Source: Bacteroidales bacterium
GTDB lineage: Bacteria; Bacteroidota; Bacteroidia; Bacteroidales; UBA932
Direction: 5' to 3'
Length of the DNA: 64,000 nt
Assembly: GCA_017962235.1 (NCBI GenBank)
Contig: JAGCVS010000016.1
Location: forward strand, 1 to 64,000
The notes below the pieces were generated by a model. The model did no database searches. It saw only the letters and a program-made list of their open reading frames with translations, and was not told the origin of the DNA. The position numbers and the translations under genes are program-made. Of the stretch, positions 3,317 through 39,152 are shown piece by piece; the first letter of the stretch is position 1; each line of letters starts with the position of its first letter.

Positions 3317-3953
3317 TGGCGTTGTATGCTTTGACGGCCTTCTTGACCGAACCGTATCTCTGTATCAGCTTTTCCGCCGTCTCGTTGTCTATGGCGGGAA
3401 TCTCTTTCATAAGCGAAGCGACCGCCTTCTGCATGGCACCGTCGCCCTTCTTTTCAGATTTACCGCCAGCCTGGGCGCCACTCTCTGCCAGCGCAAGCGT
3501 GAGCAGTGCATCCAGCGCCATCTGGTTTGCGACGCGCACCTTGAGCTGATGGCTCTCAGCCACCGTTTCCAGCGTCATCTTCACCGCGATTTCCGATGCC
3601 GACGCCACGCTGGAGGCGGCATCGCAGCAGATGCATGCGGTGAGCATTCCGCGACGGCGCCACGCCCTCATCTGCACCGCCAGATCGCCGGCAGCGCCAT
3701 TGTCAACGGCGATGAATATGTCGTTTTTTGTTACGTGCTCAGGAAGATCACTTTCAGACGATATCGCAAAGAATCTCTCTGCAGCTCCATACTCTCCCGG
3801 GACCTGGCATGTGCCGCCAAGGCAGAATATCCTGCCGCCTACGGCAAGCCGCTCCGCAATCTTCACGGAGAGCCTGCGAAGCACCGGTGCGGTCTGCTCC
3901 ACGGCCTCCGCCATAAGCTTGTTGTTGGAGAATATCGTCTGCAGCAAATCCAT
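3309..3953 (-). CDS. Degenerate MurQ-like SIS-domain protein
   Basis: 214 residues, against about 300 for true N-acetylmuramic acid 6-phosphate etherases. The SIS fold is recognisable: RIFCLGGTCQVPGEYGAAE (about 41-59) stands where MurQ has its GTSGR phosphate loop and a conserved Glu, and SHQLKVRVANQMALDALLT aligns with the MurQ stretch STRLKAGTAQKM. The C-terminus (about 180-214) is a small UBA/CUE-like helical tail. The phosphate loop is altered (GTCQV) and the N-terminal extension is missing, so activity is doubtful. It abuts a MurK-like kinase, which supports a link to MurNAc/GlcNAc recycling. It could instead be a regulatory SIS protein. Confidence 0.65.
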   Translation of the reverse strand: MDLLQTIFSNNKLMAEAVEQTAPVLRRLSVKIAERLAVGGRIFCLGGTCQVPGEYGAAERFFAISSESDLPEHVTKNDIFIAVDNGAAGDLAVQMRAWRRRGMLTACICCDAASSVASASEIAVKMTLETVAESHQLKVRVANQMALDALLTLALAESGAQAGGKSEKKGDGAMQKAVASLMKEIPAIDNETAEKLIQRYGSVKKAVKAYNANV

Positions 3954-4787
3954 CTATTTGGCAGCGTGGTATTTTACAAGCCCTTCCACGGGCTTTGCGT
4001 AAATTGGGCCCAGTTTGTAGCCGGCATTGCGAAGCATCGGCTCCAGAATATCCCGGTAGGCCTCCGCGATGCTCCCCACGAAACCCACCTTGTTGCGGCG
4101 GGGATCGTAGCGCACCACGTTGCGGGTCAGGAACTCCTCCAGACTCTCGCGGATAAGCGTGCGCATATACGGGTGGTTGCGGTGTTCCGAGATGAACATT
4201 GAGAAGCCCGCCAGAAAGCGGCTGGGAGCCTCTTCGCGGTATACCTTGCTCACGATATCTGCATATGTGAGATGATACTGACGGTCAAACTCCTTGGCCA
4301 GAGCCGCCGGCACGAATCCCTTGATATAGTCTGAGATAAGTTTCTTGCCCATGTAAGCACCGCTCCCTTCGTCGCCAAGGATAAAGCCGCCCGCTTTTGC
4401 GGTGGCGCTCATGGCCTTGCCGTCCCACCAGCAGCAGTTGCTCCCGGTGCCCAGGATACAGGCGATGCCCTCACCGTCGCCGAACAGGGCGCGGCAGGCT
4501 GCCAGCAGGTCGCTTTCAACCTCAACCTCTGCCTTGGGAAAGCACTCCACGAGGCATTCCACAAGTGCATCCTTCATCTCCCCCACAACGCCGGCGCCGT
4601 AGAACCATATCTTCTCTACGTCTTCTCCAGCCACGGGCAGGACCTCTTTCTTGAGTATCTTCTTGATTTGTGCGGGCTTGAGATATACCGGGCTGACGCC
4701 CACGGTGGAGGCCTCCTTCACCTGTCCGCCGTCCAATACGCGCCACTCTGTCTTGGTGGCGCCGCTGTCTGCAATTAACTGTTTCAT
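3954..4787 (-). CDS. BadF/BadG-type sugar kinase, MurK/NagK-like
   Basis: 277 residues of the ASKHA BadF/BadG/BcrA family. The first ATP loop is LIADSGATKTEWRV (3-16), the second glycine-rich segment is ACILGTGSNCCWWDG (about 133-147), and GGFILGDEGSGAYMGKKLI (about 156-174) is typical of N-acetylglucosamine/N-acetylmuramic acid kinases. It overlaps pnuT by one base and abuts the MurQ-like gene; kinase plus etherase is the MurNAc salvage combination. In Bacteroides thiamine operons a thiamin pyrophosphokinase usually follows pnuT, so finding this kinase here is worth noting. Sugar kinase is the safer call. Confidence 0.75.
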   Translation of the reverse strand: MKQLIADSGATKTEWRVLDGGQVKEASTVGVSPVYLKPAQIKKILKKEVLPVAGEDVEKIWFYGAGVVGEMKDALVECLVECFPKAEVEVESDLLAACRALFGDGEGIACILGTGSNCCWWDGKAMSATAKAGGFILGDEGSGAYMGKKLISDYIKGFVPAALAKEFDRQYHLTYADIVSKVYREEAPSRFLAGFSMFISEHRNHPYMRTLIRESLEEFLTRNVVRYDPRRNKVGFVGSIAEAYRDILEPMLRNAGYKLGPIYAKPVEGLVKYHAAK

Positions 4788-5407
4788 TATTTCTTACGTT
4801 CTTCCCAGACGCCGTTCTTATTCCAGTTTACGTAGCCAATCACAGCCGTGATCACATAGATTGAGAATAGGATTCCGGTGGGAATCATCCCCAACTTGAA
4901 ATAAAGGATGGCTGCAATAATATCAAACACGAACCACATCACCCATGAGATAATGTAGCGGCGGCCGGTATAGAAGGTAGCCAGCATGGTGTTGGTGGCC
5001 AGCAGAGCGTCCACCCAAGGCTTCCATGCGGGAGTATCACCTCCGGCGACCTTGGCCAGAACAAAGTGGAGCAGGAAGAAGACGCCTATCGCGATAGCGA
5101 TTGAGACGAGTCCCACCTTCCATTCGTACGGCCGGATCATTATCTTGCCCTCGTTCTCCGTGCCCTTTATGCTGTGTTTGCTGCGGGTCCAGTCTATCAG
5201 ACCGTAGATTCCGGCTCCGATAAGGTATCCCTGCACCGCTGCCATTGCATAGAGACCGTTGTGAACATAAACGGTGAGGTATGCCACTGCCGCGACGATG
5301 GCCAGATACCACATCAGCGGCTTTTGCAGAACCTGAAAAATGACATACGTAAGAGCTATGGCCGCAGCCGCCCATTCGAAATAAGTAAAGAAAGTTGCCC
5401 AGTCCAT
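4787..5407 (-). CDS. pnuT: PnuC-family vitamin transporter, predicted thiamine-type (PnuT)
   Basis: 206 residues with about seven hydrophobic helices and the PnuC signatures, including TNTMLATFYTGRRYIISWVMWFVFD split around residues 138-160. PnuC proteins are facilitators for vitamin B1 or B3 forms that depend on a cytoplasmic kinase for trapping. Two things favour thiamine over nicotinamide riboside: the gene starts 2 bases after the stop of a TonB receptor, and that receptor is preceded by a TPP riboswitch. The vitamin assignment rests on the riboswitch, not on residues. Confidence 0.85.
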   Translation of the reverse strand: MDWATFFTYFEWAAAAIALTYVIFQVLQKPLMWYLAIVAAVAYLTVYVHNGLYAMAAVQGYLIGAGIYGLIDWTRSKHSIKGTENEGKIMIRPYEWKVGLVSIAIAIGVFFLLHFVLAKVAGGDTPAWKPWVDALLATNTMLATFYTGRRYIISWVMWFVFDIIAAILYFKLGMIPTGILFSIYVITAVIGYVNWNKNGVWEERKK

Positions 5408-9476: not shown

Positions 9477-10673
9477 TCAGTATTTGATTACCAGCATGTC
9501 GCCCTCGTCTATCGTGAGGGTGTGGCTGCCGGGGGTGACGGCAGTCACGGCGCCGGTGCGGTCAATGAGTTCGCAGGGGGCGGTGAAAGTGATGCCGACA
9601 GTGCACTTCTCCTTATCTGTAGAGTTGACAATAACGATATACCGGGTGCCATCGTTCTCCAGAAACGATACCAGGGCAACGCGGTCGGTGTCCAGAGCGC
9701 TCACGGCGGCGGGCAGGTCGCTGTCTGTGAGTGGCAGGCACGCGAACGGCGTCAGATGAGTGAACCTGTTGGCGCTCACCTTGCAGCCCGCAAATATCTT
9801 CTCCCGGCACTTCATCTCCAGGTTTGCATCCTTCATGATATCATAGGCCTCGGTCCAATTGGTGTTGCCCATGTTGGGAGCCAGGGAGGTGCCGCCAAAA
9901 TCGCGGATGGTGAAATACTGCATCACCTGTGCGCCATAGGCCAGATTGGTGTTTATCTGGAGGCGGACATTCTCAAGGGTGGGCTTCGCGTGCATGTTGT
10001 TGGGCCCTTCGCGGTCTATCCAGCAGGTGGCTGCGAATGCCCAGAAGGGGATATTGTGACGCCTGCAGGCGGCCGCAACGGCCTCGTTGCACATATACCA
10101 CCAGTTCAGGATGCCGTAGCTCATGGCAGGATAGCAGTCGTAAGAGAGCAGCTTGAGGTCGCACTCGCGGGCATAGGTATCTATGTAATCGGCATAATAA
10201 TCGGTGCCCAGGGCACGGATGGAGCCCAGGGGATTGAGGTTGATATACACGGGGTGAGCCGGGTCCAGCGCCTCAACATGCTCCTTTACATATTTCAGGA
10301 ACGGAATCATCTTGAGGCCGGGTTCGTCAAAGATGTGCCAGCCATAGAGTGCCGGATGGTTCTTGAAGCGGTTCACAACGCTGTCTACCTGTGCGAAATC
10401 CACCTCCTCTATAGCTGAACGCCCGGTGTAGGGCGCCAGAACAGCCAGTATCTTGAGCCCAGTTTCCTGCGCCAGGTCAAGTTGCAGTTCTGCGGTATCC
10501 TGATCCAGCTCCAGGGTAATCATATCTATCCCCGCTTCTGCAAGCCGCTGGAAGTTCTCCATAGTGGCGCCGGCGTCACGGAAACCGAGGTAGCCCATGG
10601 ACATAATCTTCTCCTCAGCCCCGAGGCCATGAAAGCACAGCAGCAGTGCTGCAAGAATATAGAGCCTTTTCAT
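9477..10673 (-). CDS. DEP-motif TIM-barrel protein, minimal form (array copy 1)
   Basis: 398 residues: signal peptide type I (cut near GLGA/EEK, no lipobox), then directly the barrel domain (about 25-320) and a C-terminal beta domain ending DEGDMLVIKY. It lacks the N-terminal beta-sandwich and coiled coil of its paralogs. Conserved motifs are YGWHIFDEPG with Asp116-Glu117, HPVYINLNP, LLSYDCYP and AYGAQVMQYFTI. The DEP motif follows what looks like beta-strand 4, where clan-A and substrate-assisted glycosidases place their acid. The family is not one I can name. A secreted glycan-active enzyme or lectin-like barrel is the likely role. It is 9 bases from the FISUMP lipoprotein gene. Confidence 0.7.
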   Translation of the reverse strand: MKRLYILAALLLCFHGLGAEEKIMSMGYLGFRDAGATMENFQRLAEAGIDMITLELDQDTAELQLDLAQETGLKILAVLAPYTGRSAIEEVDFAQVDSVVNRFKNHPALYGWHIFDEPGLKMIPFLKYVKEHVEALDPAHPVYINLNPLGSIRALGTDYYADYIDTYARECDLKLLSYDCYPAMSYGILNWWYMCNEAVAAACRRHNIPFWAFAATCWIDREGPNNMHAKPTLENVRLQINTNLAYGAQVMQYFTIRDFGGTSLAPNMGNTNWTEAYDIMKDANLEMKCREKIFAGCKVSANRFTHLTPFACLPLTDSDLPAAVSALDTDRVALVSFLENDGTRYIVIVNSTDKEKCTVGITFTAPCELIDRTGAVTAVTPGSHTLTIDEGDMLVIKY

Positions 10674-10682
10674 AAAGCCGAT

Positions 10683-11789
10683 TTATTCAGCCTGTTTCAC
10701 GCAACGGACGGGATAGCAGCGGGGACGCAAGTCGCCGTAATAGAGACGAGCCTCGCGGGTGGTGCCGTCCACCTGGGTGCGGCATCCGCCGTCGTCCCAG
10801 TATATGAAGCGGGCGGAGCAGGAGTTCCAGAGCGCGCAATAAGGGCCGGAGGGCTCGCTGCGGTCAACCGCACCTGTATAGAAACCTCCTGCATACGGGA
10901 AATATTCTTTCTCGCCGTTGTCTGCGGCAAAGGTGAAGCCATCGGAGAGGAACTCCAGTTTTTCGGGTACCTGAAAATCTATGAAGGTATTCGAAGGAGC
11001 CACCAGATAACCGGCAGGGCACGGGTCGTAGATGGTCTTTACCATATCCTTAAGAGGGTGGCAGAATGCAAAGTCGGGGTTACCCCAGAGATAATGGTTG
11101 GTCTCGTCTTTGCTCACCACATACCAGTCAAAGGCGTCATATACGTCCCTCCCTGCAACCAGCAGTAACGGACGTGTGGGGTACTTCACGGCATATGCCA
11201 GGGACTTCTCTTCGTTGAAGTACATCTTCTTGAGGACCTGCTTTGCAGTGAACGGATCCTTGCGGCCCCACTGGTAATACAGTCCGTTGGCAGCATCACC
11301 GCTGGTGGCAGTGGCGCCCAGGTTGCGGTCCATCACGGTCCAGGATATCTTGTCACGATTGGTGTGGGTTATCTCCTTAGGGGCGTCGGTACGCCAGATA
11401 TGCCAGCTCCACAGCACTTCGCCGGCAGCATCGTAAACTGCGACCTGGGCGTTGCCAAGCTGATCGCCGGCACGGAAATAAACCTTGCTGCCATCAAAGC
11501 ATACGTCGCTCACGCAGCCGTCGTTGCTCAGTATCTTGGCTGCGGAAGGGGCGATTGTGGTGCTCTCGGTATGGAACTGTGCGCCGGGGATGATGCCCTG
11601 CTGCCCGTTGCCGATAACGGTGGCGTCAAAGCAGTAGAGGCCCGGAGCCGATACGATATAGCAGTTGGCATGGCCGGCGTTGCTGAGATTCACAGCCGCA
11701 TCCCATGCAGAGCCGCCTGAATGTTTCTTGGAGCACCCTGCAGCGGCGATGAGTGCAACCGACATCAACAAAACGAATATCTTTTTCAT
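10683..11789 (-). CDS. FISUMP-type surface lipoprotein
   Basis: 368 residues with a lipobox (IAAAGC, Cys19). A first domain has GHANCYIVSAPGLYCFDATV, a motif found in two other proteins of this window. It is followed by a FISUMP-like domain: VLWSWHIWRTDAP, MDRNLGAT, GLYYQWGRKDPF, IYDPCPAGYLVAP and the closing PRCYPVRCVK. FISUMP (Fibrobacter succinogenes major paralogous) domains occur on surface proteins and their chemistry is unknown. Membership of an operon with barrel proteins suggests surface glycan binding. Confidence 0.7.
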   Translation of the reverse strand: MKKIFVLLMSVALIAAAGCSKKHSGGSAWDAAVNLSNAGHANCYIVSAPGLYCFDATVIGNGQQGIIPGAQFHTESTTIAPSAAKILSNDGCVSDVCFDGSKVYFRAGDQLGNAQVAVYDAAGEVLWSWHIWRTDAPKEITHTNRDKISWTVMDRNLGATATSGDAANGLYYQWGRKDPFTAKQVLKKMYFNEEKSLAYAVKYPTRPLLLVAGRDVYDAFDWYVVSKDETNHYLWGNPDFAFCHPLKDMVKTIYDPCPAGYLVAPSNTFIDFQVPEKLEFLSDGFTFAADNGEKEYFPYAGGFYTGAVDRSEPSGPYCALWNSCSARFIYWDDGGCRTQVDGTTREARLYYGDLRPRCYPVRCVKQAE

Positions 11790-11801
11790 AACCTGAACTT
11801 A

Positions 11802-13298
11802 TTATCTGTATTTGATTACCAACATATCACCTTCGTCTATCACGAACTTCTCCTTTCCGGGCTGATGTTCAGTGAACTTGCCGTCGCGGTCTATCGTATA
11901 TGCCATGGCTGCGAATTCCACCTCGGCGGTGAATTTCTCCATGCAACTGCTGTTCACCACAGCAATGTAGCGGTTGGGGCCGTTCTCCACAAACGATATC
12001 AGCGCTGTCTTGTCGGAGTCTATGGAAACTATCTCCTCCGGCAGGTCCTCCTCCAAGAGCGGCAGGCAGTAGTAGGGAGTGAGATGGGTGAATCGGGTCT
12101 TGGTCACGTTGCCGCCGGCAAACACATAGCCGCGGCGGTGCACCTCAGCGTTGAACTCCTTCATCAGGTCATACAGGTATGTGTACTTGCAGTCCACCGT
12201 GATGGGAGCTATGCACTGCTTGGAGTATGAGCGGTACACAAAATACTGCACCACCGGTGCGCCGAATGCCAAGTCTGTGTAGACCTGCAGACGCATGTTC
12301 TCCATGGTGGGTTTCTGGCGGGCGGGTTGCTCGTAATCCATGCCGCAGGAGGCGGTGAACAGCCAGATTGGAATACCTTTCTCCTTGCCCACCTCATAGT
12401 TGGCTTCCAGGCAGCGGTACCACTCGTTCATCACGCTGCCGTCTATCAGCACCGGATACTGGTCGTATGAGAGGATATCCATATGTGTACCCTCCACCAT
12501 CTTGCGGATATAATCGGTATAATAATCGGTGCCAAGGGCACGGATGCTGGCGTGCGGGTGGAGGTTGATGTGCACCGGCACGTCGGGAGCGATTGCCTTG
12601 ATCCAGTCCCTGCGCTGTTTGAGCTCAGGTATCAGGCTAAGGCCCGGCTCGTCAAAGATGTGTATCATCATCAGGTCGGGGTCGTCCTTGCACCTTTCAA
12701 TCACGCTGGCAAGCTGGGGGTGATGCAGCGAGTACTTGAGGCCGGCGTTCTTGATAAGGCCCAGCTTGAACTCCAAGGTGGCCATCATGTCGCTGTCGTC
12801 CAGCACGCCGTCGCCGTTCATGTCCATTCTCTCGCCACCCTCCAGGGTTATCATGGTAAAGCCGGCTTCAGCCACCTTGTTGTAATCTTCCTGAGTAGTG
12901 TTGACCCTGTCCAGGCCGCCGAACGGGAGCAGGTCCACTTTCTTTCTGGTAGCTGCGGTATAGGGGTCCTTTATCATTATCGGGAGCTTTGCCCATTCCC
13001 GCGTTCCGTCTGCAAATATCGCCAGGGCCTCCAGATCCACCTCCGTAGCTGGGTCGGGAGCGGTGACAACAATGCTGCCGCTGCGTCCGTCGCGCTCATT
13101 CAGTTTCACATCCCAGCCGTAACCCGCCTTGGTGGACACGGCCACCTTTGCATCTGCAGGAAGCGTGTACTCTATGGTGACGCTCTCCCCGGCACTGACG
13201 CCGTAACGGGCTTTGTCAAACGACCATACATTCTCTGCAGCGCCCGCCGCAAACGGCAGAGCCAGCAGAGTAACCAATACCAACAACTTTATTCTCAT
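11802..13298 (-). CDS. DEP-motif TIM-barrel protein with EF-hand loop (array copy 2)
   Basis: 498 residues: type I signal peptide (cut near AAGA/AEN), an N-terminal beta-sandwich (about 25-110), a barrel (about 120-430) and a C-terminal beta domain ending DEGDMLVIKYR. The conserved IHIFDEPG puts Asp216-Glu217 at the presumed active site, with LSYDQYPV and AFGAPVVQYFVY further on. Unlike its relatives it carries a textbook 12-residue EF-hand calcium loop, DMNGDGVLDDSD (residues 159-170), early in the barrel. There is no lipobox or coiled coil, so this copy should be soluble in the periplasm or secreted. Confidence 0.7.
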   Translation of the reverse strand: MRIKLLVLVTLLALPFAAGAAENVWSFDKARYGVSAGESVTIEYTLPADAKVAVSTKAGYGWDVKLNERDGRSGSIVVTAPDPATEVDLEALAIFADGTREWAKLPIMIKDPYTAATRKKVDLLPFGGLDRVNTTQEDYNKVAEAGFTMITLEGGERMDMNGDGVLDDSDMMATLEFKLGLIKNAGLKYSLHHPQLASVIERCKDDPDLMMIHIFDEPGLSLIPELKQRRDWIKAIAPDVPVHINLHPHASIRALGTDYYTDYIRKMVEGTHMDILSYDQYPVLIDGSVMNEWYRCLEANYEVGKEKGIPIWLFTASCGMDYEQPARQKPTMENMRLQVYTDLAFGAPVVQYFVYRSYSKQCIAPITVDCKYTYLYDLMKEFNAEVHRRGYVFAGGNVTKTRFTHLTPYYCLPLLEEDLPEEIVSIDSDKTALISFVENGPNRYIAVVNSSCMEKFTAEVEFAAMAYTIDRDGKFTEHQPGKEKFVIDEGDMLVIKYR

Positions 13299-13308
13299 AT
13301 GCTAAAGA

Positions 13309-14073
13309 TTATTTCTTTTCCTTAAGGGTGACCCTGTACATAGAGGGCCAGTATTTGCCGGTGAGGAAAATCTCACCCGTATCGGGATTGTGCGCGATGC
13401 CGTTCAGCACATCGGTGTGGGCGGTACGCCGCTGCTTTGGCAGCAGTCCGCGGCAGTCTATCACCCCTTCCACCTCACCGCTGGCGGGATCGATAATCAC
13501 AATCTCGTCTTTGAGATATATGTTCGCCCAGATTTTACCATCGATGAATTCCAGCTCGTTGAGATGATTCACGCTCTTGCCCCCCTTGCGCACGGTGATG
13601 CTGCGCACAATGGTGAAGGTCTTGGGGTTGATGAAATATATCTGGGCGCTGCCGTCGCTCATTATAAGCAGCCCGCCGTCTGTGGTAAGCCCCCACCCCT
13701 GGCGCTTGTAGACCTTCTGCCCGACGCGCTTGAAGGTGTTTTTGTCATATATGAGGCACACCCCTTCCAGCCAGGTGAGGATATACAGTTCGTCACCTAT
13801 GGTACAGCTTCCTTCCGCAAAGATCTCCTTGTCCAGCTCTACTTCGCGCTTTGCCTTTCCGGTTTCAATATCCACCTCCATCAGACGCGACTCTTCATAC
13901 TGGCCGGCCGTCTCGAACAGCCTGCCGCCGTCAAAGAAGAGTCCCTGGGTATACGAGAGGGTATCGTGAGGATACTCCTGCTCTACATTCACCACATAAC
14001 GGGTCATCTTGCCCGCCGGCGCACAGCATGCCAGGGCCAGTGAAACAAGTGCGACGGAGAGGAATGCCTTCAT
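13309..14073 (-). CDS. Glutaminyl-peptide cyclotransferase (plant/bacterial beta-propeller type)
   Basis: 254 residues with a signal/lipobox region (LALACCAPAG) and the five-bladed propeller of the plant-type glutaminyl cyclases: YPHDTLSYTQGLFFDGG with the family TQGL motif, ESRLMEVDIETGK, LTWLEG (about 97-102), GWGLTTDGGLLIMSDGSA, VNHLNELEFIDGKIWANIY and DVLNGIAHNPDTGEIFLTGKYWP. The family turns N-terminal Gln of exported proteins into pyroglutamate in the periplasm. In Bacteroidota many signal peptidase I products start with Gln, and several in this window do. It sits inside the DEP-protein operon with 10-base spacing on both sides. Confidence 0.88.
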   Translation of the reverse strand: MKAFLSVALVSLALACCAPAGKMTRYVVNVEQEYPHDTLSYTQGLFFDGGRLFETAGQYEESRLMEVDIETGKAKREVELDKEIFAEGSCTIGDELYILTWLEGVCLIYDKNTFKRVGQKVYKRQGWGLTTDGGLLIMSDGSAQIYFINPKTFTIVRSITVRKGGKSVNHLNELEFIDGKIWANIYLKDEIVIIDPASGEVEGVIDCRGLLPKQRRTAHTDVLNGIAHNPDTGEIFLTGKYWPSMYRVTLKEKK

Positions 14074-14083
14074 CGGTATGATA

Positions 14084-14920
14084 TTAATTGGTGGCTGTTA
14101 CAGCAAGCGATTTTACCACGCTGCGCCCCTGGCCATCCGATACGAATACCAGTATTGAAGAGGAACCGGCTGTCGCGGGAGCCTTGACCTGTATCATGCC
14201 ATTGGCATGGTCTGTCTTTGTCAGGTTCGCCGTCCATGAGTCCTTTGTATAGAGGATAATCTCCGTATGCGCGTCGCCGCCCGCTATTTCATAGCTGATG
14301 GTGCGTCCGCCGCCTGCCTCCATAGTGAGGCTATAGGTGCTCAGGGTAAGCGTCAGCGGCCTGACCTTGACTAGGGTGATGCGCGTCCCGCCGGCAAGCA
14401 CAAACACCACCGACTCTTCGCTGTCAATCACCTCGTCTATCACGGGGACGCCGACTTCTCCCGCGACGGTCCATGTGGCACCGCCGTCCAGCGATACCTT
14501 GATGACGCCATCGGAGACTATGAACTGCGGCGTAACGGAAGCGGTGCAGGCCTCCACCTTGTTGCCGTCGGCATCGGTGAGCCATTTGCCCCCCACCATC
14601 CAGTAATACTTCCCCTCGAAAAGGCCTACCGACACATTCGCGGTGGAGTTATATACGGTGACGGATCCGGAGTTCTTGAAGGTGACGGTGTACCCCACCA
14701 CCTTGCCCCCTTCCGTAACGGGGCTAAAGGAGACCACCTCATCTGCTATCTGAAGTGCCTCAACAAGTTTCTCCAGAGCCGCGACATTGTCGTTCACCTT
14801 GGAGTTGGCGGTTGCCAGCTCGTCCAGCTGCCGCTGCAAATCGGCAATCTCGGTGTCATAATCATGACAGGAGACTGCGCACAGGGCACATGCCGCGATT
14901 ATCAGGAGAAATCTTCTCAT
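14084..14920 (-). CDS. DUF4988-like coiled-coil lipoprotein, short form
   Basis: 278 residues: lipobox CAVSCH (Cys18), a heptad-like segment DTEIADLQRQLDELATANSK (about 22-41), a DUF4988 (PL29 N-terminal type) region with FKNSGSVTVYNSTANVSVGL, YYWMVGGKWLTDADGNKV and SDGVIKVSLDGGATW, then a BACON-like sandwich ending at residue 278. It matches the N-terminal half of the 707-residue protein of the same operon but has no FISUMP domain. No catalytic residues are recognisable; a structural or binding partner on the cell surface is most likely. Confidence 0.65.
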   Translation of the reverse strand: MRRFLLIIAACALCAVSCHDYDTEIADLQRQLDELATANSKVNDNVAALEKLVEALQIADEVVSFSPVTEGGKVVGYTVTFKNSGSVTVYNSTANVSVGLFEGKYYWMVGGKWLTDADGNKVEACTASVTPQFIVSDGVIKVSLDGGATWTVAGEVGVPVIDEVIDSEESVVFVLAGGTRITLVKVRPLTLTLSTYSLTMEAGGGRTISYEIAGGDAHTEIILYTKDSWTANLTKTDHANGMIQVKAPATAGSSSILVFVSDGQGRSVVKSLAVTATN

Positions 14921-14923
14921 TGA

Positions 14924-16507
14924 TTATTCATACTTGAACACCAGCATGTCGCCGCCCTCCAGAGGGAAGCGGGAAATGCCGGGCTGCAGCTCGGTGAATA
15001 CGCCGTCGTGGTCTATCACATAAATCATGTCTGCCACGTCTATTGCAACCTCCTGGGTCCAGTTCCAGAGGCTGTTAACAACAACCATATACTTGTTGCC
15101 CTTGTTCTCTACAAAGGAAACCACGGATTCGCGGCTGGTGTACAGGCTGTTGATCTGAGGAGGCAGGTCGGCCAGGCTCAGGCTCTCGCTCCAGGAATCT
15201 ATCACCATGTATTTGCGAACCTTGGGAACATCGCTACCGGCAAAGACATAACCGCGGTTGTGCATCTCGGTGCAATAGTCCTGACATATATCGTATGCGG
15301 TGGTATATGTGCCGTCTGCCATGACGGGCGCATAGTTGGTACCCGATGTTGCGCGGTATACGAAGAACTGGTTCACCTGTGCGCCGTATGCCAGGTTGGT
15401 GTTGCACTGCAGACGCATGTTCTCCAGAGTGGGGTCTTCCCTGTTCCACTCCCGGCAGCAAAGCGTGAATGCCCAGAACGGTATTTTGTGCCTTAGTGCA
15501 CTCTCGCGCACAGCAGCCAGAGACCTGGGCCAGGAGGGATCCATAAAACCGGCATATACGGGATACTGGTCAAACGTGATAAACTTGAGGTCGCACTCCG
15601 TTACAAATGTCTCTACATATTCAAAGTAGTCGTCCACACCCAGGGAGCCCTTGGAGGCGCTGCTGGGGTGCAGGTTAACATACACCGGATGTGCGGGGTT
15701 GGGGTCCAGTTCCTCGATTCTGTCCTTCTCGTATTTTATCTGACCGATATTCAGGGTGGACGGTTCGTCGTATATCTGATAACCGGCAAGCGCGGGCATA
15801 TCCTTGGCAACGGCGATTATCTCGCTGAGGGAAGTTGAATTCTGGTCGCGGTAATAGTCACCGGCAGGGCCATTCACAAACAACACACCCTTGAGGCCAT
15901 ACTTGTGCGCCAGCTCCAGCTGCTCTTTCCAGTTGTCCACGGACTCTATGGTGAGCATGTTCATGCCGCACTCCGCCATCTTCTGGAAGTGGTAGTCGGT
16001 GGCGATGCCGGGGTGGAAACAGTAATAACCCATTGCAGCCACATCGGTACGGGTGGCGTCGGTGTAGGGGTCACGGACCATCACGGGGAGGACGGTTGTG
16101 GTTCTGCGGCCTTCTGGCGTAGTGGCGGTAACAATCAGGTCGGTAACCACTGCAGGGTCGGGAGCCGTGAGGGTGATGGTACCCGATTTGGAGCCGGAAC
16201 CGCTAACCTTTGCAGTCCACCCTTCCCTGACTATCACACTGACCTCAGCGGCCTCTTCAAGGGTATAGGAGAGGGTTACGCTGCCGCCCGCATCCACTGC
16301 GTAGCGGTTTTTCTCAAATGTAAAACTCAGAGGGCCGCTGCTGTACTCAGAGAGTTCTGAATACTGTGAGTCGGGCACGCCCGGAATCTGCTCCTGCTGA
16401 AATGCAGCTAGGTCCTTCTGCAGCTGTTCCAGCTGATCTTTTTCTTCTTTCTGGCAGCCAGCGGCGATGAGAGCCACGGCGATAAGGATTATATAAAGCT
16501 TCTTCAT
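14924..16507 (-). CDS. DEP-motif TIM-barrel lipoprotein (array copy 3)
   Basis: 527 residues: lipobox LIAAGC (Cys18), acidic residues just after it (a surface-export-like signal), a short coiled coil EEKDQLEQLQKDLAAFQQEQ (21-40), a BACON/Ig-like sandwich (about 58-145, FTFEKNRYAVDAGGSVTLSY), the barrel (about 155-440) and a C-terminal beta domain ending GGDMLVFKYE. The active-site candidate is AGYQIYDEPS, Asp247-Glu248; ITFDQYPV and AYGAQVNQFFVY are the other family motifs. It is predicted to be lipid-anchored and surface-exposed. It abuts its neighbours within 4 bases on each side. Confidence 0.7.
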   Translation of the reverse strand: MKKLYIILIAVALIAAGCQKEEKDQLEQLQKDLAAFQQEQIPGVPDSQYSELSEYSSGPLSFTFEKNRYAVDAGGSVTLSYTLEEAAEVSVIVREGWTAKVSGSGSKSGTITLTAPDPAVVTDLIVTATTPEGRRTTTVLPVMVRDPYTDATRTDVAAMGYYCFHPGIATDYHFQKMAECGMNMLTIESVDNWKEQLELAHKYGLKGVLFVNGPAGDYYRDQNSTSLSEIIAVAKDMPALAGYQIYDEPSTLNIGQIKYEKDRIEELDPNPAHPVYVNLHPSSASKGSLGVDDYFEYVETFVTECDLKFITFDQYPVYAGFMDPSWPRSLAAVRESALRHKIPFWAFTLCCREWNREDPTLENMRLQCNTNLAYGAQVNQFFVYRATSGTNYAPVMADGTYTTAYDICQDYCTEMHNRGYVFAGSDVPKVRKYMVIDSWSESLSLADLPPQINSLYTSRESVVSFVENKGNKYMVVVNSLWNWTQEVAIDVADMIYVIDHDGVFTELQPGISRFPLEGGDMLVFKYE

Positions 16508-16510
16508 AGT

Positions 16511-18103
16511 CTATTTGTATTTAAGCACCAGCATCTCACCCATCTCCAGCCAGAGGTCGTGGGCTCCGGGCCTGAGCTCCTGAAACTGGGCATCTTTATC
16601 GATGAGATATACCGGGCTGCTCAATTCTATGCTTACAACCTGGTTTGCGGTCCAGTAGTTATTTACAATTACGATATATTCATTGCCATCATTCTCAATA
16701 AATGATACGGTGGCGCCAGAAGTAACTTCCAGACTCTTCAGGCACTCCGGGAAATCCAGCACGGAGAGATATTTCTCAATGGGTGCCAGAGGCCCTGTCT
16801 GACGGACGCAGTTCACTTTGGAGTCCTTGAACACAAACGCTCTTTTCTGCATTCTCAGGTTGGCTGCCTTGAGTTCTTCATATGCCTGTGTCCAGGTACC
16901 GTCCCGCATAATGGGGGCGTAATCGGTACCGCTGTAGTCCTGTATGGTAAAATACTGTACAGTCTGCGCGCCATACGCCAAATCAGTATAGATCTGCAGC
17001 CGGATATTCGATGCGGTGGGCTTCTCCCTGCGGAGGGTGGTGCCCGTCTCCTTGTTTATCCAAGTGCTGGCGGCAAATGCCCAGAAGGGTATGCCGTGAC
17101 GCTTGGCGGCGTCCGCCACCGTGGCCAGGCACATATGCCATTCATTCTGAATAGCTCCCACCAGAACCGGATAGATATCGAAAGATATGAAGTCGAAATC
17201 CATATAATCCGACATTATATTAATGTACTCTGTGTACGTTTGCACGCCCATGGAGTTGGGAGAAGCGTTTGCAAGCAGATTGATATAAATCGGACGGGTA
17301 GGATCGATCCTTCTGATTTTATCCTTGACGGCCATAAGCCTCCAGATATCGTCTACACTGGGTTCATCGCACATGTGATACCCGAATACAGAGGGCTGGT
17401 CCTTCAGATAGCCCACCACCTCATCAATGGCGGTGTCTTCCATGTTGTCGTACCAGTAGTTGCCCTGATTGCCCACAACGGCCAGGGTCTTGAGCCCCGC
17501 CTGTGCAGCATTGTCTATATACTGCTTCCAGTCGCCCTCGTCTGTCTCTAGAGTGACCATGGTGAGTCCCGCATCGGCCAGCTTCTGATAATTCTCTACG
17601 GTGGCGTTCCAGGGCTTGAAGCAATAGTAGCCCATCGCCTCCATCTTGGGTTGGTTGTCCTCGCTGTAGGGGTTGCGCACAAGAATGGGCAGTATGGCAG
17701 CGGTACTGCGCCCTGAGGCTGCAGTAGCGGTAACCACAATGTCACGGTAGCTGGCAGGGTCGGGTGCAGTGACCACAATATCCCCTTCGGTACCGCCTGT
17801 AGCGTTCAGCATAACGCTCCATCCTCCCTTAGGCAAAACCTCAACCTCGGCTGCCTCCGGCAGACTGTAATGAATAGTGATGCTGCCAGCCGCGTCTACG
17901 CCGTAAAAGTCCTTGTCAAATGAGAATACAAAATCGCCTTCCAGCGCCGGTTTCAAACCGGAAGCATCGGGCAACTGCGGTGCCTGCTCCTGCTGCATAG
18001 CTGTTAGATCGCCCTGCAACTGCTCCAGCAGCTCCCGCTCCTGCTTGTTGCAGGAGAGTGCCGCCATCAGCATCACAGACAGTATGAGCGCCGCTTTTCT
18101 CAT
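16511..18103 (-). CDS. DEP-motif TIM-barrel lipoprotein (array copy 4)
   Basis: 530 residues with the same plan as copy 3: lipobox AALSC (Cys18), coiled coil QERELLEQLQGDLTAMQQEQ (21-40), sandwich with FSFDKDFYGVDAAGSITIHY, barrel, C-terminal sandwich ending EMGEMLVLKYK. The DEP motif is GYHMCDEPSV (Asp246-Glu247), followed by ISFDIYPVL and AYGAQTVQYFTIQ. LEQLQ in the stalk is identical in copies 3, 4 and 5. The substrate is unknown. Close similarity in length and domain borders shows recent tandem duplication. Confidence 0.7.
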   Translation of the reverse strand: MRKAALILSVMLMAALSCNKQERELLEQLQGDLTAMQQEQAPQLPDASGLKPALEGDFVFSFDKDFYGVDAAGSITIHYSLPEAAEVEVLPKGGWSVMLNATGGTEGDIVVTAPDPASYRDIVVTATAASGRSTAAILPILVRNPYSEDNQPKMEAMGYYCFKPWNATVENYQKLADAGLTMVTLETDEGDWKQYIDNAAQAGLKTLAVVGNQGNYWYDNMEDTAIDEVVGYLKDQPSVFGYHMCDEPSVDDIWRLMAVKDKIRRIDPTRPIYINLLANASPNSMGVQTYTEYINIMSDYMDFDFISFDIYPVLVGAIQNEWHMCLATVADAAKRHGIPFWAFAASTWINKETGTTLRREKPTASNIRLQIYTDLAYGAQTVQYFTIQDYSGTDYAPIMRDGTWTQAYEELKAANLRMQKRAFVFKDSKVNCVRQTGPLAPIEKYLSVLDFPECLKSLEVTSGATVSFIENDGNEYIVIVNNYWTANQVVSIELSSPVYLIDKDAQFQELRPGAHDLWLEMGEMLVLKYK

Positions 18104-18110
18104 TCTTCTT

Positions 18111-19706
18111 TTATTCGTATTTGATGACCATAAGGTCGCCTTCGTCTATTACAAACTCTTCGCTTCCCGGCCGGTGCTCCGTAAAGGAGCCGTCCGGCTC
18201 TATAGTGTACACCATATCGTTGAAGGTCACTTCCACAGAAATCTTCTGGGTATAACTCTGGTTGACCATGGCGATATAACGGTTGCCTCTGTTCTCTATG
18301 AACGATACCAGGGCTGTGCCGCTGGCGGCGATGGATTCTATCTGCTGCGGCAGATTGGCCTGCGAAAGGGCATCGCCCCAGATTGCGGGGCTGTCGGTAA
18401 AGCGGATGTCCTCCACGGAGCAGCCGTTGAACACATATCCGCGCTTCTGGATCTGATGGCAGGCTGTCTTGAGATAGTCGTATGCCTCAGTCCATGTTCC
18501 GTCCAGCATGATGGGGGCGAACGTGGTGCCGCCGTATTGCTGTATGGTAAAGAACTGTACCACCTGGGCGCCGTAAACCATATCCGTGTATGCCTGCAGG
18601 CGCAGGTTCTCTACCGACGGACGGCCGCGGACAATGGTGCCTCCCTCGTTGTCTATGTGGCAGCTTGCAGCAAAGGCCCAGAAAGGTATGCCGTATTTGC
18701 GGGCCATGTCGGACACAGCGCGCAGACACATGTGCCAACCCTGCATGTAGGTGCCGTCTGTGAGTATGGGATACATGTCAAACGACAGGAACTTCACGCC
18801 GCAGTCACGGGCAAAGGCCTCTATGTAATCCCTGTAAGTGGTTGTACCCAGGGAGGCCGACGAGCCGTCGGGGTTGAGATTGATATATACAGGGTGCTCC
18901 GGGTCCAGCGACTCTATCTTCTCCCTGATCCGTTTCAGACGGGGTATCCTATCTGTGCTGGGCTCGTCAAAAACGTGGTATGCCAATGTACCGGGCTGCT
19001 CCTTGAGATAACCCACCAGCTCGTCCAGATACTTGTAATTGTCGGGGTCACCTGCCCAGCGGTCGCCGGCGAAACCTATGATGGCCAGCGACTTCATCCC
19101 TACCTTCCATGCCCGCGCCACCTGGTCCTTAAAGTCGTAATCCTCGCACTCTACCGTTACCATATTCAGGCCGGCATCTGCCAGCTTCTGGAAATTGGCC
19201 TCGGATGCGTGTTGGGGCTTCAGGCTGTAATAACCCAGCAGGTTGGCCTGGGTGCGGGTGGCATCGGTATAAGGGTCGCGGACAATCAGGGGGATGATTG
19301 CGGCCGCGATTTTACCGTTTTCTGCGGTGGCAGTCACCGTAAAGGTTGCGGGCGCTGCGGGGTCGGGGGCGGTAAGGGTAATCGTTCCGGTGGTGGCGCC
19401 GGTGGCGTTCACAGTGGCGGTCCAGCCCTCCCGGGGGGAGACAGTTACAGCACACGCCTCGCTCAGAGTGTAACCGACAGTCACACTGGAGCCAGCATCC
19501 ACGCCGTACCTTTGCTGGTCAAAGACGATGGCAAAGGGGCCATCCGACAGTGCGGGCACGACCGCCTGCGGTACGGCGCTGCCATCGGCGTTCTGCAACT
19601 CTTCCAGAGAAGCCTGTAGCTGTTCCAGCTCCAGCTTCTGCTCTTCGTTGCAGGCTACCGGAATAACCAGCACGGCCAGCAATACGTATAACAGAACCCG
19701 TCTCAT
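18111..19706 (-). CDS. DEP-motif TIM-barrel lipoprotein (array copy 5)
   Basis: 531 residues: lipobox VIPVAC (Cys19), coiled coil EEQKLELEQLQASLEELQNA (21-40), sandwich with VFDQQRYGVDAGSSVTVGY, barrel and C-terminal domain ending DEGDLMVIKYE. The DEP motif is AYHVFDEPST (Asp247-Glu248); LSFDMYPIL and VYGAQVVQFFTIQ follow. It is 7 bases from copy 4 and 3 bases from the 707-residue DUF4988/FISUMP gene upstream, so all are one transcription unit. Confidence 0.7.
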   Translation of the reverse strand: MRRVLLYVLLAVLVIPVACNEEQKLELEQLQASLEELQNADGSAVPQAVVPALSDGPFAIVFDQQRYGVDAGSSVTVGYTLSEACAVTVSPREGWTATVNATGATTGTITLTAPDPAAPATFTVTATAENGKIAAAIIPLIVRDPYTDATRTQANLLGYYSLKPQHASEANFQKLADAGLNMVTVECEDYDFKDQVARAWKVGMKSLAIIGFAGDRWAGDPDNYKYLDELVGYLKEQPGTLAYHVFDEPSTDRIPRLKRIREKIESLDPEHPVYINLNPDGSSASLGTTTYRDYIEAFARDCGVKFLSFDMYPILTDGTYMQGWHMCLRAVSDMARKYGIPFWAFAASCHIDNEGGTIVRGRPSVENLRLQAYTDMVYGAQVVQFFTIQQYGGTTFAPIMLDGTWTEAYDYLKTACHQIQKRGYVFNGCSVEDIRFTDSPAIWGDALSQANLPQQIESIAASGTALVSFIENRGNRYIAMVNQSYTQKISVEVTFNDMVYTIEPDGSFTEHRPGSEEFVIDEGDLMVIKYE

Positions 19707-19709
19707 GTA

Positions 19710-21833
19710 TTATTCAGCCACCTGCTTTACGCAACGTACAGGGATTGCGCGTGCGCGCATGTCACCCTGGTACCAGTAAACGGTGTGTGTTTCCTTATCC
19801 ACAACGGTGACAGCTGCACCTGCGCTCTCGTTGACACCGTATCTGCCTGCGCAGGAATGCCACAATGCCAATTCTCTCCCAACGGTGCCGCCGCGGTACA
19901 TCCTGCCGGCAAAAGGATAGAAGCTTTCCTGTCCGTAATCGCCGCGAACGATCATACCCTCTTCTGTATACTGGGTGCGGGTCTCGTCACGGAAAATCAG
20001 GAAGGCATTTGCCGGGGGAACCATGTAGCCTACAGGGCACGGGTCATAGATACTCTTGCTCAGGTCTTTCAGATGGCGGTTCTTGCCATAATCGGGGTTG
20101 CCCCACAGATAGACGTTGGCAGTTGAATACCAGTTGCCGTCTGAGTTGCCGTCTGCGGTATAAGGGCGCTGGGGATACCTGATTGAGAAGGCGAATGCAT
20201 GGGAACTGTTGTTTGCCATGCTGTTCATTGCGGTATTTGCCTCAAACGGATCCTTGCGGCCCCACTGATAATACACGCCGTGGGTTGCGGTTCCGTCTGC
20301 AGGGTCTGCGCTGGTTGCACCCAGGTTGCGGTCCAGGGTAGTGAACCGCAGAAGGTCAGGATTGGTATGGGTACGTTCCTGAGGTGCATCGGTGCGCCAG
20401 ATATGCCAGCTCCACGCTGTGATTCCACGGGAGTTCTTTATGGCGATTAGTGCATTTCCCTCTACATCGGTTGCATGGAAATAAACCTTGCCATCTTTCA
20501 GGGTGGGTGTACCCGAGATTACATCACCGGTGTTGTAAACTATCTCTACCCTGACAGGTTCCAGTACAGAAGATGCGGGGAAATCGGTATACGGAGCAGC
20601 GGTGCTGGGCATGATGCCGGAGTCGCCGCAGCCTGCCACGGTAGCGTCAAAGTAATAATCGCCCGCCTTGGTAATGATGTAGCAGTTTGCAGTACCGTTA
20701 GCGCTCAGGTTCTCACCGGAATCCACGGGCCTGGGCTCCTGCCATACCATCACTGTCTGGGTATAAGTGTCAGAAGAAATAACAACCTTGGCGCTGCGCA
20801 TTGCTTCACCGTTATTGGGCTGTGCGGTAAGGGTAACGGTCTCCTCGCGGACAGCCTTGGTGCCACCCATGGTAAGCCAGTCGGCACCGGGCTCTATTGT
20901 AACATCGTACTTGTCCAGATTGATATACAGTTTTATATCCACCTGCGAACCGGACCACAATGCGCTGTATGCATCCCATGCAGGGTACATCACAGGGAAT
21001 TTCTCATCCACTTTAAGGGTATCGAAATTGATGGCGCAGGTAACGGTATGACCCAGCCCGTCGCCAAACAGTAGCTGTGCACTCTTGCCGGCAGCGGGTT
21101 CCAGAGCGGTTACTACAACCTGTCCCTTGGTCTCGTTCTCCCAAATAATCTGGTAGCCCCAATGATCGGGCAGAACCGGAATCACGGTATAGCTGTTTGC
21201 CTCACCATCAATAAGAAAATCGATAACAGCGGTTCCTTTGGTTGCCATGGTACTGCCGTCGCCGCTAATCATAACCGCGATGGTTGCATCCTTGGCAAAG
21301 TCCACAACTGTACCGCCAAGGAATGTCACGGCGATATTGGAGCCATCCTCATTTATTGACTGCACCACCGGCTTGTCAGATTTGGAAATCTGCTGCCAGG
21401 TCTTCTGGCCGTCGGTGCTCACCTCAATCGCATCTTCGCTCACACGGAACTCGGGAGCGGTGGCGATGGTGGCGTTCTTGCCTGAAGCATCTGTGAGCGG
21501 AGTGCCGTTGAGAGTCCAGAAATAGTTTCCGTCCTGAACTCCCACAGAAATAGCTGCCGTCTGGTTGGGAACGCTCACGGTACCGTTGCTCATGAACTTG
21601 AAATCGTAGCCGGTTTCTGTCTTGGTAACCGATACAATCGGGTCACCGGACTGCTTGATGAGCAGCACATCCCTGAGGCCGCCGAGAGAGTTGGTAATGG
21701 TTGCCAGGTCCTCGCGGTTTACAATGAGTTGTTCAATCTTCTTCTGCGTCTCTTCTATCTGAGATTCATAGTCCACGCAAGAAGTAACCAGCAGCGCACA
21801 CGCCGCCATGATGGTAAGGATTATTCTTTTCAT
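19710..21833 (-). CDS. DUF4988-BACON-FISUMP modular lipoprotein
   Basis: 707 residues: lipobox LLVTSC (Cys19), coiled coil SQIEETQKKIEQLIVNREDL (24-43), DUF4988-like region (about 55-200: GYDFKFMSNGTVSVPNQTAA, NYFWTLNGTPLTDASG), an all-beta middle, a BACON-like domain (about 300-370: GADWLTMGGTKAVREETVTL), then ANCYIITKAGDYYFDATV and a FISUMP domain (TAWSWHIWRTDAP, LDRNLGAT, GVYYQWGRKDPF, YDPCPVGYMVPP, IPVRCVKQ). It reads like the 278- and 368-residue proteins fused. It is the first gene after a terminator and promoter, so it leads the DEP operon. It is probably a large surface scaffold or glycan-binding protein. Confidence 0.68.
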   Translation of the reverse strand: MKRIILTIMAACALLVTSCVDYESQIEETQKKIEQLIVNREDLATITNSLGGLRDVLLIKQSGDPIVSVTKTETGYDFKFMSNGTVSVPNQTAAISVGVQDGNYFWTLNGTPLTDASGKNATIATAPEFRVSEDAIEVSTDGQKTWQQISKSDKPVVQSINEDGSNIAVTFLGGTVVDFAKDATIAVMISGDGSTMATKGTAVIDFLIDGEANSYTVIPVLPDHWGYQIIWENETKGQVVVTALEPAAGKSAQLLFGDGLGHTVTCAINFDTLKVDEKFPVMYPAWDAYSALWSGSQVDIKLYINLDKYDVTIEPGADWLTMGGTKAVREETVTLTAQPNNGEAMRSAKVVISSDTYTQTVMVWQEPRPVDSGENLSANGTANCYIITKAGDYYFDATVAGCGDSGIMPSTAAPYTDFPASSVLEPVRVEIVYNTGDVISGTPTLKDGKVYFHATDVEGNALIAIKNSRGITAWSWHIWRTDAPQERTHTNPDLLRFTTLDRNLGATSADPADGTATHGVYYQWGRKDPFEANTAMNSMANNSSHAFAFSIRYPQRPYTADGNSDGNWYSTANVYLWGNPDYGKNRHLKDLSKSIYDPCPVGYMVPPANAFLIFRDETRTQYTEEGMIVRGDYGQESFYPFAGRMYRGGTVGRELALWHSCAGRYGVNESAGAAVTVVDKETHTVYWYQGDMRARAIPVRCVKQVAE

Positions 21834-21877
21834 ATTGTTAAATAGTGCATTATTTCAAAATGGGTCGATAAATCGCG

Positions 21878-21909
21878 CTAAGATACCCATTTTTGGGCAT
21901 AAAACAAAA
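21878..21909 (-). promoter_or_regulatory. Promoter leading the DEP-protein operon
   Basis: On the minus strand a -33 TTTTG (21905-21909), a 19-base spacer and a -7 TATCTTAG (21878-21885, seven of eight consensus positions) lie just after the terminator and about 45 bases ahead of the 707-residue gene. Spacing matches the Bacteroidota consensus. Confidence 0.55.
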
Positions 21910-21927
21910 CCCATCGAAATATTACGC

Positions 21928-21959
21928 AAAAAAGGTACCCCGTTGCAAGGATACCTTTT
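21928..21959 (-). terminator. Rho-independent terminator after array copy 6
   Basis: An 11-bp stem (AAAAGGTATCC pairing with GGGTACCTTTT, one G-U) with an 8-base loop is followed on the minus strand by a T run. It begins 6 bases after the stop of the 529-residue gene. Because A and T runs flank both sides it could work in either direction. Confidence 0.7.
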
Positions 21960-21965
21960 CAATTA

Positions 21966-23555
21966 CTAGCGCCACTTAATTACCAGCATATCACCCTCGT
22001 CTATGATGAATCGGGTCTCTCCAGGCGGCTGTTCAGAGAATTCCCCCTCGCGGTCTATCGTATAAACCGCCCGGGTAAAACCGATATAGACTGATATCTT
22101 TTCCTGCCAGGACTTATTGCACAGCACCACATATTCGTTGCCGCTGTTGCGGATAAAGGAGACCACGGCGCTGCCGTCGGTGCTGATGCCGCTTATGGCG
22201 TCGGGCAGATCGGAAGTTTCCGGATATGTGCCGTGAAGATAATAATCGTGGCCTATGTGGCGGAGTTTGTATACATCGCCGCGGGCAAACACGAACTCCC
22301 GGCTGTGCACCTCATGGTTGTATTTCTGTATATCGTAATAGACAGGCTTGTATGTACCGTCGCCCATTATGGGGGCATAGTCGCTGTCGCTCAGACACTT
22401 CCACACAAAGAACTGGTTGCACTGGGCGCCGTATGCAAGATTCACGTTGCCCTGCATGCGGATGTTCTCCAGAGTGGGGTCTTCCCTCCCCTGTAGCCTG
22501 CTGCAAAGCAGGAACGCCCAGAAAGGCACTCCGTGACGCCGGGCCGCGTCACGCACTACATTCAGCGAATGGTACCACGAATTCTCCACCCCTTCCAGTC
22601 GCACCGGATACTGGTCAAAGGTGATGAACTCCAGATCGCAGACGCTGGCAAAATGTTCTACATACTCTTCATAAGAATTCGCTCCCATTCCTGCCGTGGA
22701 CACCGTGCTGGGATGCAGGTTTATATAAACCGGACGGTCGGGGTCCAGTTCGTTTATCCTCCTTTTGGCAGTGGCAAGACGGTTGGCAATTGCGGTGCTA
22801 GGCTCATCTGCAATCTGATATGCGCAGATGGCCGGATATTGCTTGGCCTCTGCAATCAGGGCATCCAAACCCTTGTAATTAACGGGGTCATCGGAATAGA
22901 GACCGGCGGTGTAATTGATAAACAGGACCACCTTGACACCGGTCTGCTCCGCATAGCGGCACTGGTCGCGCCACCATGGGCCGTGTATCAGATCTTCTCC
23001 CTCTACGGTAATCATGGTCATTCCCGCATCGGCCAGCTTCTGGAAATTCTCCAGAGTGCCGAGAGTCCCATTCAGCCCGTTATAACCTAGCGATTCAATG
23101 CGGGGGCTTTGGGTATTGCAGAAAGGTTTGCGCACGAATACCTGGAAGAAGGTTTCCGCCACGCTGCCGTTCTGGGTTGTCGCCTTAATTCTCACTATTG
23201 CGGGCGAGGCGGGATCGGGAGCGGTGACTTTTATGGTTCCTTCATTTTCACCGGACTGCGCATTCTCCACCACTATACTCCACCCTTCCCCGGCCTCAGT
23301 CTCCAACGTGGCGGGCTGGTTCAGGGTATAATGCACCTCAAAGCTCCCCCTTGCATCTACCCAGCAATCGCATTTGTCCAGAGCGATACTCAAATCGGGC
23401 AAGACAATCTGCTGCGCATCCGGCAACCCATACGTCGCACCCTCAAGCTCCGACTTCTGCTCTTGCAGTTGGGCCAGCTGCTCCTTCAGCTCTCCGTTGC
23501 ACCCCGCAAAGAGAGCCGCAGCCAGCATCAGTATTAACAACGATAACCTGCGCAT
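21966..23555 (-). CDS. DEP-motif TIM-barrel lipoprotein (array copy 6)
   Basis: 529 residues: lipobox ALFAGC (Cys19), coiled coil GELKEQLAQLQEQKSELEGA (21-40), sandwich (about 55-142) that is Cys-rich at KCDCW, barrel and C-terminal domain ending DEGDMLVIKWR. The DEP motif AYQIADEPST gives Asp250-Glu251; ITFDQYPV and AYGAQCNQFFVW follow. It is separated from the other five copies by a terminator and promoter and lies 13 bases behind gmhA, so it is probably expressed with the glycoside hydrolase run rather than with the other copies. Confidence 0.7.
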   Translation of the reverse strand: MRRLSLLILMLAAALFAGCNGELKEQLAQLQEQKSELEGATYGLPDAQQIVLPDLSIALDKCDCWVDARGSFEVHYTLNQPATLETEAGEGWSIVVENAQSGENEGTIKVTAPDPASPAIVRIKATTQNGSVAETFFQVFVRKPFCNTQSPRIESLGYNGLNGTLGTLENFQKLADAGMTMITVEGEDLIHGPWWRDQCRYAEQTGVKVVLFINYTAGLYSDDPVNYKGLDALIAEAKQYPAICAYQIADEPSTAIANRLATAKRRINELDPDRPVYINLHPSTVSTAGMGANSYEEYVEHFASVCDLEFITFDQYPVRLEGVENSWYHSLNVVRDAARRHGVPFWAFLLCSRLQGREDPTLENIRMQGNVNLAYGAQCNQFFVWKCLSDSDYAPIMGDGTYKPVYYDIQKYNHEVHSREFVFARGDVYKLRHIGHDYYLHGTYPETSDLPDAISGISTDGSAVVSFIRNSGNEYVVLCNKSWQEKISVYIGFTRAVYTIDREGEFSEQPPGETRFIIDEGDMLVIKWR

Positions 23556-39135: not shown

Positions 39136-39152
39136 AACCATTTCTCGTTTAA

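Follow-up and report, generated by a model that had tools for sequence, protein, structure and literature searches.

The window analysed here (the whole 64,000-nt stretch of Bacteroidales DNA) carries, between positions 9477 and 23555, an array of six paralogous open frames on the minus strand, B1 to B6, whose products share a barrel with an invariant Asp-Glu-Pro (DEP) motif. Judged from their sequences, what lies here is a conserved, surface-oriented block of barrels that derive from glycoside hydrolase family GH42 and have a changed active site. The array is real: all six paralogous genes proposed by an earlier sequence-only reading were borne out as open frames at their positions, with B1-B4 and B6 being 39-45% identical to B5. 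B1 (9477..10673, 398 aa) is a bare GH42-like DEP barrel behind a type I signal peptide; B2 (11802..13298) combines barrel and beta-sandwich, also behind a type I signal peptide; and B3 (14924..16507), B4 (16511..18103), B5 (18111..19706) and B6 (21966..23555) are lipoproteins with coil, beta-sandwich and DEP barrel, whose mature N-termini read CQKEEK, CNKQER, CNEEQK and CNGELK, respectively. Interleaved on the same strand are FIS1 (10683..11789), a lipoprotein with basic residues after the lipobox Cys that matches no family model, a type I glutaminyl cyclase (QC; 13309..14073; PF05096, 2.4e-90), DUF4988a (14084..14920), a lipoprotein of coil and DUF4988 without a barrel, whose C-terminal stretch weakly matches the beta-sandwich of the barrel proteins, and a lipoprotein with DUF4988 and BACON domains (19710..21833), which is the first gene of the block and has, by eye, a FIS1-like C-terminus.

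Much of the domain description in the sequence-only reading held. The DEP motif is present in all six proteins (HIFDEPG, HIFDEPG, QIYDEPS, HMCDEPS, HVFDEPS, QIADEPS), as is the motif (S/T)(F/Y)DxYP; the proposed AYGAQ strand is exact in four, with B2 reading AFGAP and B5 VYGAQ. A lipobox had been claimed for four proteins, and the pattern matched B3, B4 and B6, while B5, reading P-V-A-C, was not matched. As proposed, B3-B6 have a sandwich region and a short coil, heptad-like by eye, and the two type I secreted proteins do lack the coil, B2 keeping the sandwich and B1 having neither. The interleaved cyclase was likewise recovered, as was DUF4988 in two of the interleaved lipoproteins (Pfam, 7.6e-13 and 1.3e-07). 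The label FISUMP found no support, no such model matching the two interleaved lipoproteins concerned (E limits of 1 in Pfam and 0.01 in NCBIfam); a search of the open-licence PMC literature for FISUMP together with lipoprotein found nothing, absence there being weak evidence. Nor are the six strictly mutual best matches: within the genome, B5 is most similar to a protein on contig C19 (51%), the array members reaching up to 45%, and the tree places every one of the six next to rows of other genomes.

Kinship of the barrel was assessed with hhalign, using a 79-row profile (69 rows after filtering) against 13 GH42 domains, with E-values that refer to one pair each. The comparison gave 98.5% (E 1.6e-15) in local and 99.4% (E 3.3e-20) in global mode, against at most 9.5% for eight controls (GH20, GH123 and AP_endonuc_2 barrels, and four reversed alignments). 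As a caution, GH42 scored 59% over 60 columns against the DEP-type subset of GH123, so moderate hhalign scores do occur between barrels of different families. The 79 rows, which are kin and not independent, were assembled leaving out hits whose domain score did not exceed 40, domains that did not extend beyond profile position 200, segments of <200 residues and identical segments; the reference profiles drew on 13/30 GH42, 14/20 GH123, 17/20 GH20 and 19/20 AP_endonuc_2 loci, with fragments and low-scoring loci set aside. Searched singly, 14 of 33 members matched PF02449 at E up to 0.01, and two of the six window proteins passed its cut-off of 21, B2 with 34.7 and B4 with 21.1 bits; B1 (20.8), B5 (14.2) and B6 (11.8) fell below it and B3 was unmatched. 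The nearest solved sequence to a 31-row profile of diverse members was GH42 3tts (E 4.6e-07). For the GH42 trimerisation and C-terminal domains, none of the six array proteins had a Pfam match down to the loose limit of E 1. By profile comparison, then, the barrel is homologous to GH42; the profile search against Pfam links it to PF02449, where the sequence-only reading had named no family. It is GH42-like, yet on the aligned residues membership of GH42 fails on the nucleophile.

In the hhalign alignment, DEP takes the place of NEP, the acid/base motif of GH42. In B5 numbering, every one of the 78 covering rows (of 79 aligned) has Asp247, Glu248, Asp310 and Tyr312, the Asp247-Glu248 pair lying on strand 4 and Tyr312 64 residues after Glu248. 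The strand-4 acid/base Glu is accordingly kept in 78/78 rows and the Asn that precedes it in GH42 is replaced by Asp in 78/78; Asn276 is found in 75/78 rows and Trp343 in 77/79. At position 346, that of the strand-7 nucleophile, all 79 rows have Ala, Thr, Val, Leu or Ile, and the strand-7 Glu of 3tts, which we take to be the GH42 nucleophile, aligns with Ala or Thr. The Asp-Glu pair and Asp-x-Tyr are kept throughout the diverse set of 31, at identities to B5 down to 19% and including relatives outside the genus. As aligned, the family keeps the acid/base, has Asp in place of Asn and lacks the nucleophile, and because the nucleophile is absent, ordinary GH42 chemistry was set aside. For a GH42 lacking its nucleophile, nothing was found in the open-licence PMC literature, where absence is weak evidence. 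Separately, B2 has an EF-hand-like loop, DM(N/D)GDG-x5-D, inserted after strand 2, as does each of the eight rows in its group; the pattern is, we presume, that of a calcium loop, which B2 would then probably carry.

In its own genome the family gave ten matches: the six array proteins, the 51% copy on C19, another of 31% on contig C15, a barrel elsewhere in the window and a stretch on contig C9 that matches the beta-sandwich only. The window barrel (60131-61450, plus strand), a distant DEP barrel outside the array, is 22% identical to B5 over the barrel, and matches scoring like it were seen in 10 other genomes of the genus. A search of 60 genomes, counting the own one, gave matches at E up to 1e-20 in 16, of which 14 belong to the genus (26 genomes in the search), and array-type matches (best E < 1e-190) occur in 12/26. 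In two overlapping phylum samples, each including the own genome, at least 2/395 genomes matched at 1e-15 and at least 7/296 at 1e-12, both lower bounds with at most 3 and 6 candidates, respectively, scored per genome. Five of the eight named relatives are, by their titles, from the forestomach of sheep, goat or water buffalo.

Conserved clusters in other genomes, which the sequence-only reading had named as a check, were found: the order B3-(DUF4988a)-QC-B2-FIS1-B1 is kept in the own genome and in seven others of the genus (G006, G025, G018, G017, G023, G016 and G019, in the last of which B3 is cut by the contig end). DUF4988a is missing from the block in G006 and G025, and one or two extra open frames lie between FIS1 and B1 in G006, G025 and G023, those of G025 including an extra barrel. 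The front of the block (the DUF4988/BACON gene, B5 and B4) varies among genomes, and G018 has a B4-type gene after B1. In a 55-row tree, B1, B2, B5, B4 and B3/B6 form well-supported groups that span genomes, the exceptions being three front genes, two from G017 and one from G023, that join neither the B5 nor the B4 group; part of the backbone lacks resolution, and the root is a midpoint with long outgroup branches. The tree suggests that ortholog groups mostly follow gene position. As an observation in its own right, several relatives have, between FIS1 (or the extra barrel) and B1, an extra frame of 233-246 codons without counterpart in the window (L023 1519-2256, L026 1605-2315, L030 15552-16250, L165 2507-3241), a candidate family.

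The N-termini of B3-B5 and of most coil-bearing relatives (CNKEDK, CDKESQ and similar) resemble the published lipoprotein export signal, whose tested form is QKDDE, with acidic variants in other species (PMC5080379). Four of the six barrel proteins are lipoproteins, probably shown on the outer surface, with DUF4988-type coils and beta-sandwiches that would serve as display stalks. Two genomes, G014 and G024, have fusion proteins in which DUF4988 precedes the barrel; among ten proteins scanned, PF16378 was above cut-off in three and a fourth fell just short. The proposal of a surface glycan-acting module with distinct paralogs is supported by the GH42 profile, the export-like N-termini, the conserved block and the ortholog groups; for the sensing role suggested alongside it, nothing was found in its favour.

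No second copy of the QC gene was detected in the genome. A QC match was found in 21/26 genomes of the genus, array-less ones among them, with one match per genome except in G009, whose two are complementary pieces at contig ends, and each of the 12 array genomes has it on a contig that also bears array barrels. Of six contexts read in array-less relatives, five show QC next to a homolog of the same TonB receptor; in G011, no receptor lies between QC and the transporter gene. A dedicated role of QC in the array was dropped, since it also occurs in array-less relatives and there stands beside the homolog of that receptor. Being the only copy detected and present in array-less relatives, QC is probably a housekeeping gene lying in the operon. 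QC is described as essential in Porphyromonas gingivalis, but the enzyme there is of the other class, type II (PMC10653852). Two further features were seen around QC: the sole match in G017 (L020 5719-6483) is interrupted by an in-frame stop, either a sequencing error or real, and in array-less G020 and G022 (L156 11175-14771, L158 2706-9350) large BACON lipoproteins lie upstream of QC, with IgA-peptidase-type M64 domains in the three scanned and leucine-rich or thioredoxin-like parts in some.

As to what the barrels do, we tentatively favour surface glycosidases that have turned to substrate-assisted catalysis on N-acetylhexosamine glycans. The six would be GH42-derived TIM-barrel proteins of the cell envelope, in which the substrate's own 2-acetamido group has taken over from the enzyme nucleophile, as in GH20 and GH123; Glu248 would act as acid/base, Asp247 would hold the acetamido nitrogen and Tyr312 its carbonyl, and N-acetylhexosamine glycans would be trimmed at the surface by paralogs that, distinct before the compared genomes parted, may differ in neighbouring subsites. 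GH18, GH20, GH123 and others are listed as substrate-assisted, with catalytic residues similarly placed and little sequence conservation (PMC13080975). Hexosaminidase-type C-terminal domains in three distant relatives, all from a single other genus (3/6 scanned), were counted in favour; one of the three was also compared with solved chains. Several points weigh against this reading. The mechanism is drawn by analogy, profile similarity being absent to GH20 (0.4%) and to GH123 (0.8%), and CHB_HEX_C is a mobile domain. In hhalign the GH42 Glu is displaced by one residue, to position 345 and alongside a gap, although no row is acidic at 345; within positions 344-349 a Glu is seen in a single row, L048, where it stands at 349. 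A solved GH42 likewise has the strand-6 Asp and Tyr, so that only the Asn-to-Asp change and the loss of the nucleophile set the family apart. The 79 rows were collected with the family's own profile, which motif-less relatives could escape; the N-terminus of B6 is less like the export signal; and four GH2-type genes next door could indicate another glycan.

The barrels may instead have become pseudo-glycosidases that, with the nucleophile lost, only bind glycans at the surface as capture proteins, each paralog with its own ligand. This reading, which we rank close behind the substrate-assisted enzyme, would accommodate the non-acidic nucleophile position in 79/79 rows, the interleaving with DUF4988/BACON lipoproteins and the coil stalks and export-like N-termini of several copies, but the invariance of Asp-Glu and Asp-x-Tyr (78/78 rows, 31/31 of the diverse set) was judged to exceed what a mere binding cleft needs. 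Glycosidases of another geometry are unlikely: they could be inverting, follow the epoxide-type mechanism of GH99, or use a strand-4/strand-6 pair (Glu248 or Asp247 with Asp310), such carboxylate pairs being found in alpha-retaining clans. Asp310 is indeed the only other fully invariant carboxylate, B1 has a weak GH99 match (0.00092, under cut-off), and with the 31-row profile, solved glycoprotein endo-alpha-1,2-mannosidases, which we take to be GH99, match at 0.00083; yet the GH99 matches stop before DEP, and solved GH42 3tts also has the strand-6 Asp, presumably not its nucleophile. Returning to the substrate-assisted reading, a bolder version of it, which we put forward as speculative, would see here a new GH family that arose from GH42 within clan GH-A by loss of the nucleophile and change of Asn-Glu to Asp-Glu, and that expanded in one Bacteroidales genus as a surface-displayed operon with paralogs specialised for different acetamido-sugar glycans.

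It seems improbable that the barrels simply serve the SusC/SusD utilisation locus next door as ordinary accessories and work on the glycan of that locus. Just upstream on the same strand lie genes for LacI, GH78, a SusC-type receptor (39153-42221), SusD (37210-39171), BACON, GH2, GH30-like, GH39 and mannosidase-type GH2 proteins; spacing is close, and B6, starting 13 bases after this run, is its last gene. The description of the array as lacking SusC/SusD therefore applies only with a caveat to its surroundings here, but it does fit G006 and G025, where the block keeps its place between the same flanks (a nitroreductase and a beta-lactamase-fold gene) on a continuous contig without the locus. 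The locus stands just beside the block in G017 and G018 as in the own genome. Its GH39 marker was found in 7/26 genomes of the genus and in 6/12 array genomes, five of these six having it on a contig with array-type barrels; the other six array genomes (assemblies 69-92% complete) gave no GH39 match at 1e-30. SusC/SusD was thus not found to belong to the same conserved unit as the block. Signals also divide the two: between B6 and the block lies a terminator-like stem with a T run (21928..21950; 1 found vs 0.2 expected in shuffles), followed by a promoter-like element, GTTTTG-N18/19-TA(T/C)CTT(A/C)G (21878..21910), upstream of the first block gene. The element, one mismatch from the Bacteroides promoter consensus, occurs in 4/6 upstream regions (own, G006, G025 and the second copy of G018), and in the other two, G010 and G023, a coding gene lies directly upstream; the exact consensus was not found before the block. 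Since the block is kept without SusC/SusD in G006 and G025 and is set off by these signals, it is probably a transcription unit of its own.

If the substrate-assisted reading is right, the family would illustrate, inside a single barrel superfamily, how glycosidases can exchange a nucleophile of their own for one that the substrate supplies. It would also explain what a multi-copy operon of envelope proteins does in bacteria whose relatives have genomes from the forestomach of sheep, goat and buffalo; if the barrels merely bind, they would be a sizeable set of surface lectins built from an enzyme fold.

Other sugar-related genes were noted. The window holds a full GH123 (56091-57875, minus strand), and contig C10 (80738-91059) has four close-set GH123_cat-like matches, each with Y-W-x-D-E-P. 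At 3309-5407 (minus strand), N-acetylmuramate-6-phosphate etherase-like and N-acetylglucosamine kinase-like genes, weak and below curated cut-offs, adjoin a nicotinamide mononucleotide transporter-type gene, which is above cut-off. At L170-L172 (three genomes, all of a single other genus), distant DEP barrels are joined to chitobiase/hexosaminidase C-terminal and F5/8C domains and have Gln on strand 7.

Among known systems, the array barrels share barrel homology, the strand-4 acid/base Glu, the strand-6 DxYP and the strand-8 GA with GH42 beta-galactosidases (clan GH-A; PF02449; 3tts/3tty), from which they differ in the Asp for Asn before the acid/base, in Ala, Thr, Val, Leu or Ile for the strand-7 nucleophile Glu, in matching none of the further GH42 domains and, in the lipoprotein members, in the added N-terminal coil and sandwich. 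The N-terminal part of the BT_3328 family hyaluronate lyase (NF058554), a DUF4988-stalked surface enzyme, resembles DUF4988a (E 1.6e-13), though at 49.8 bits, far below the cut-off of 1100, and over the first 260 of 840 model positions, DUF4988a having no lyase part. With GH20 hexosaminidases the barrels share the Asp-Glu pair with a downstream Tyr and Trp (PMC11308363), but they have no H/N-x-G-x-D-E motif at strand 4, and GH20 ancestry was dropped with hhalign at 0.4%; no GH20 was detected in this genome. GH123 ancestry was dropped likewise (hhalign 0.8%; DEP-type subset 1.9% vs 0.2% for reversed), and the barrels have no match to PF13320. The GH123 N-acetylgalactosaminidases, which have no enzyme nucleophile, do share the Asp-Glu pair, written D-E-P in 6/14 members inspected, and their arrangement of an adjacent Asp-Glu pair without an enzyme nucleophile recurs, as a pattern only, in the array barrels.

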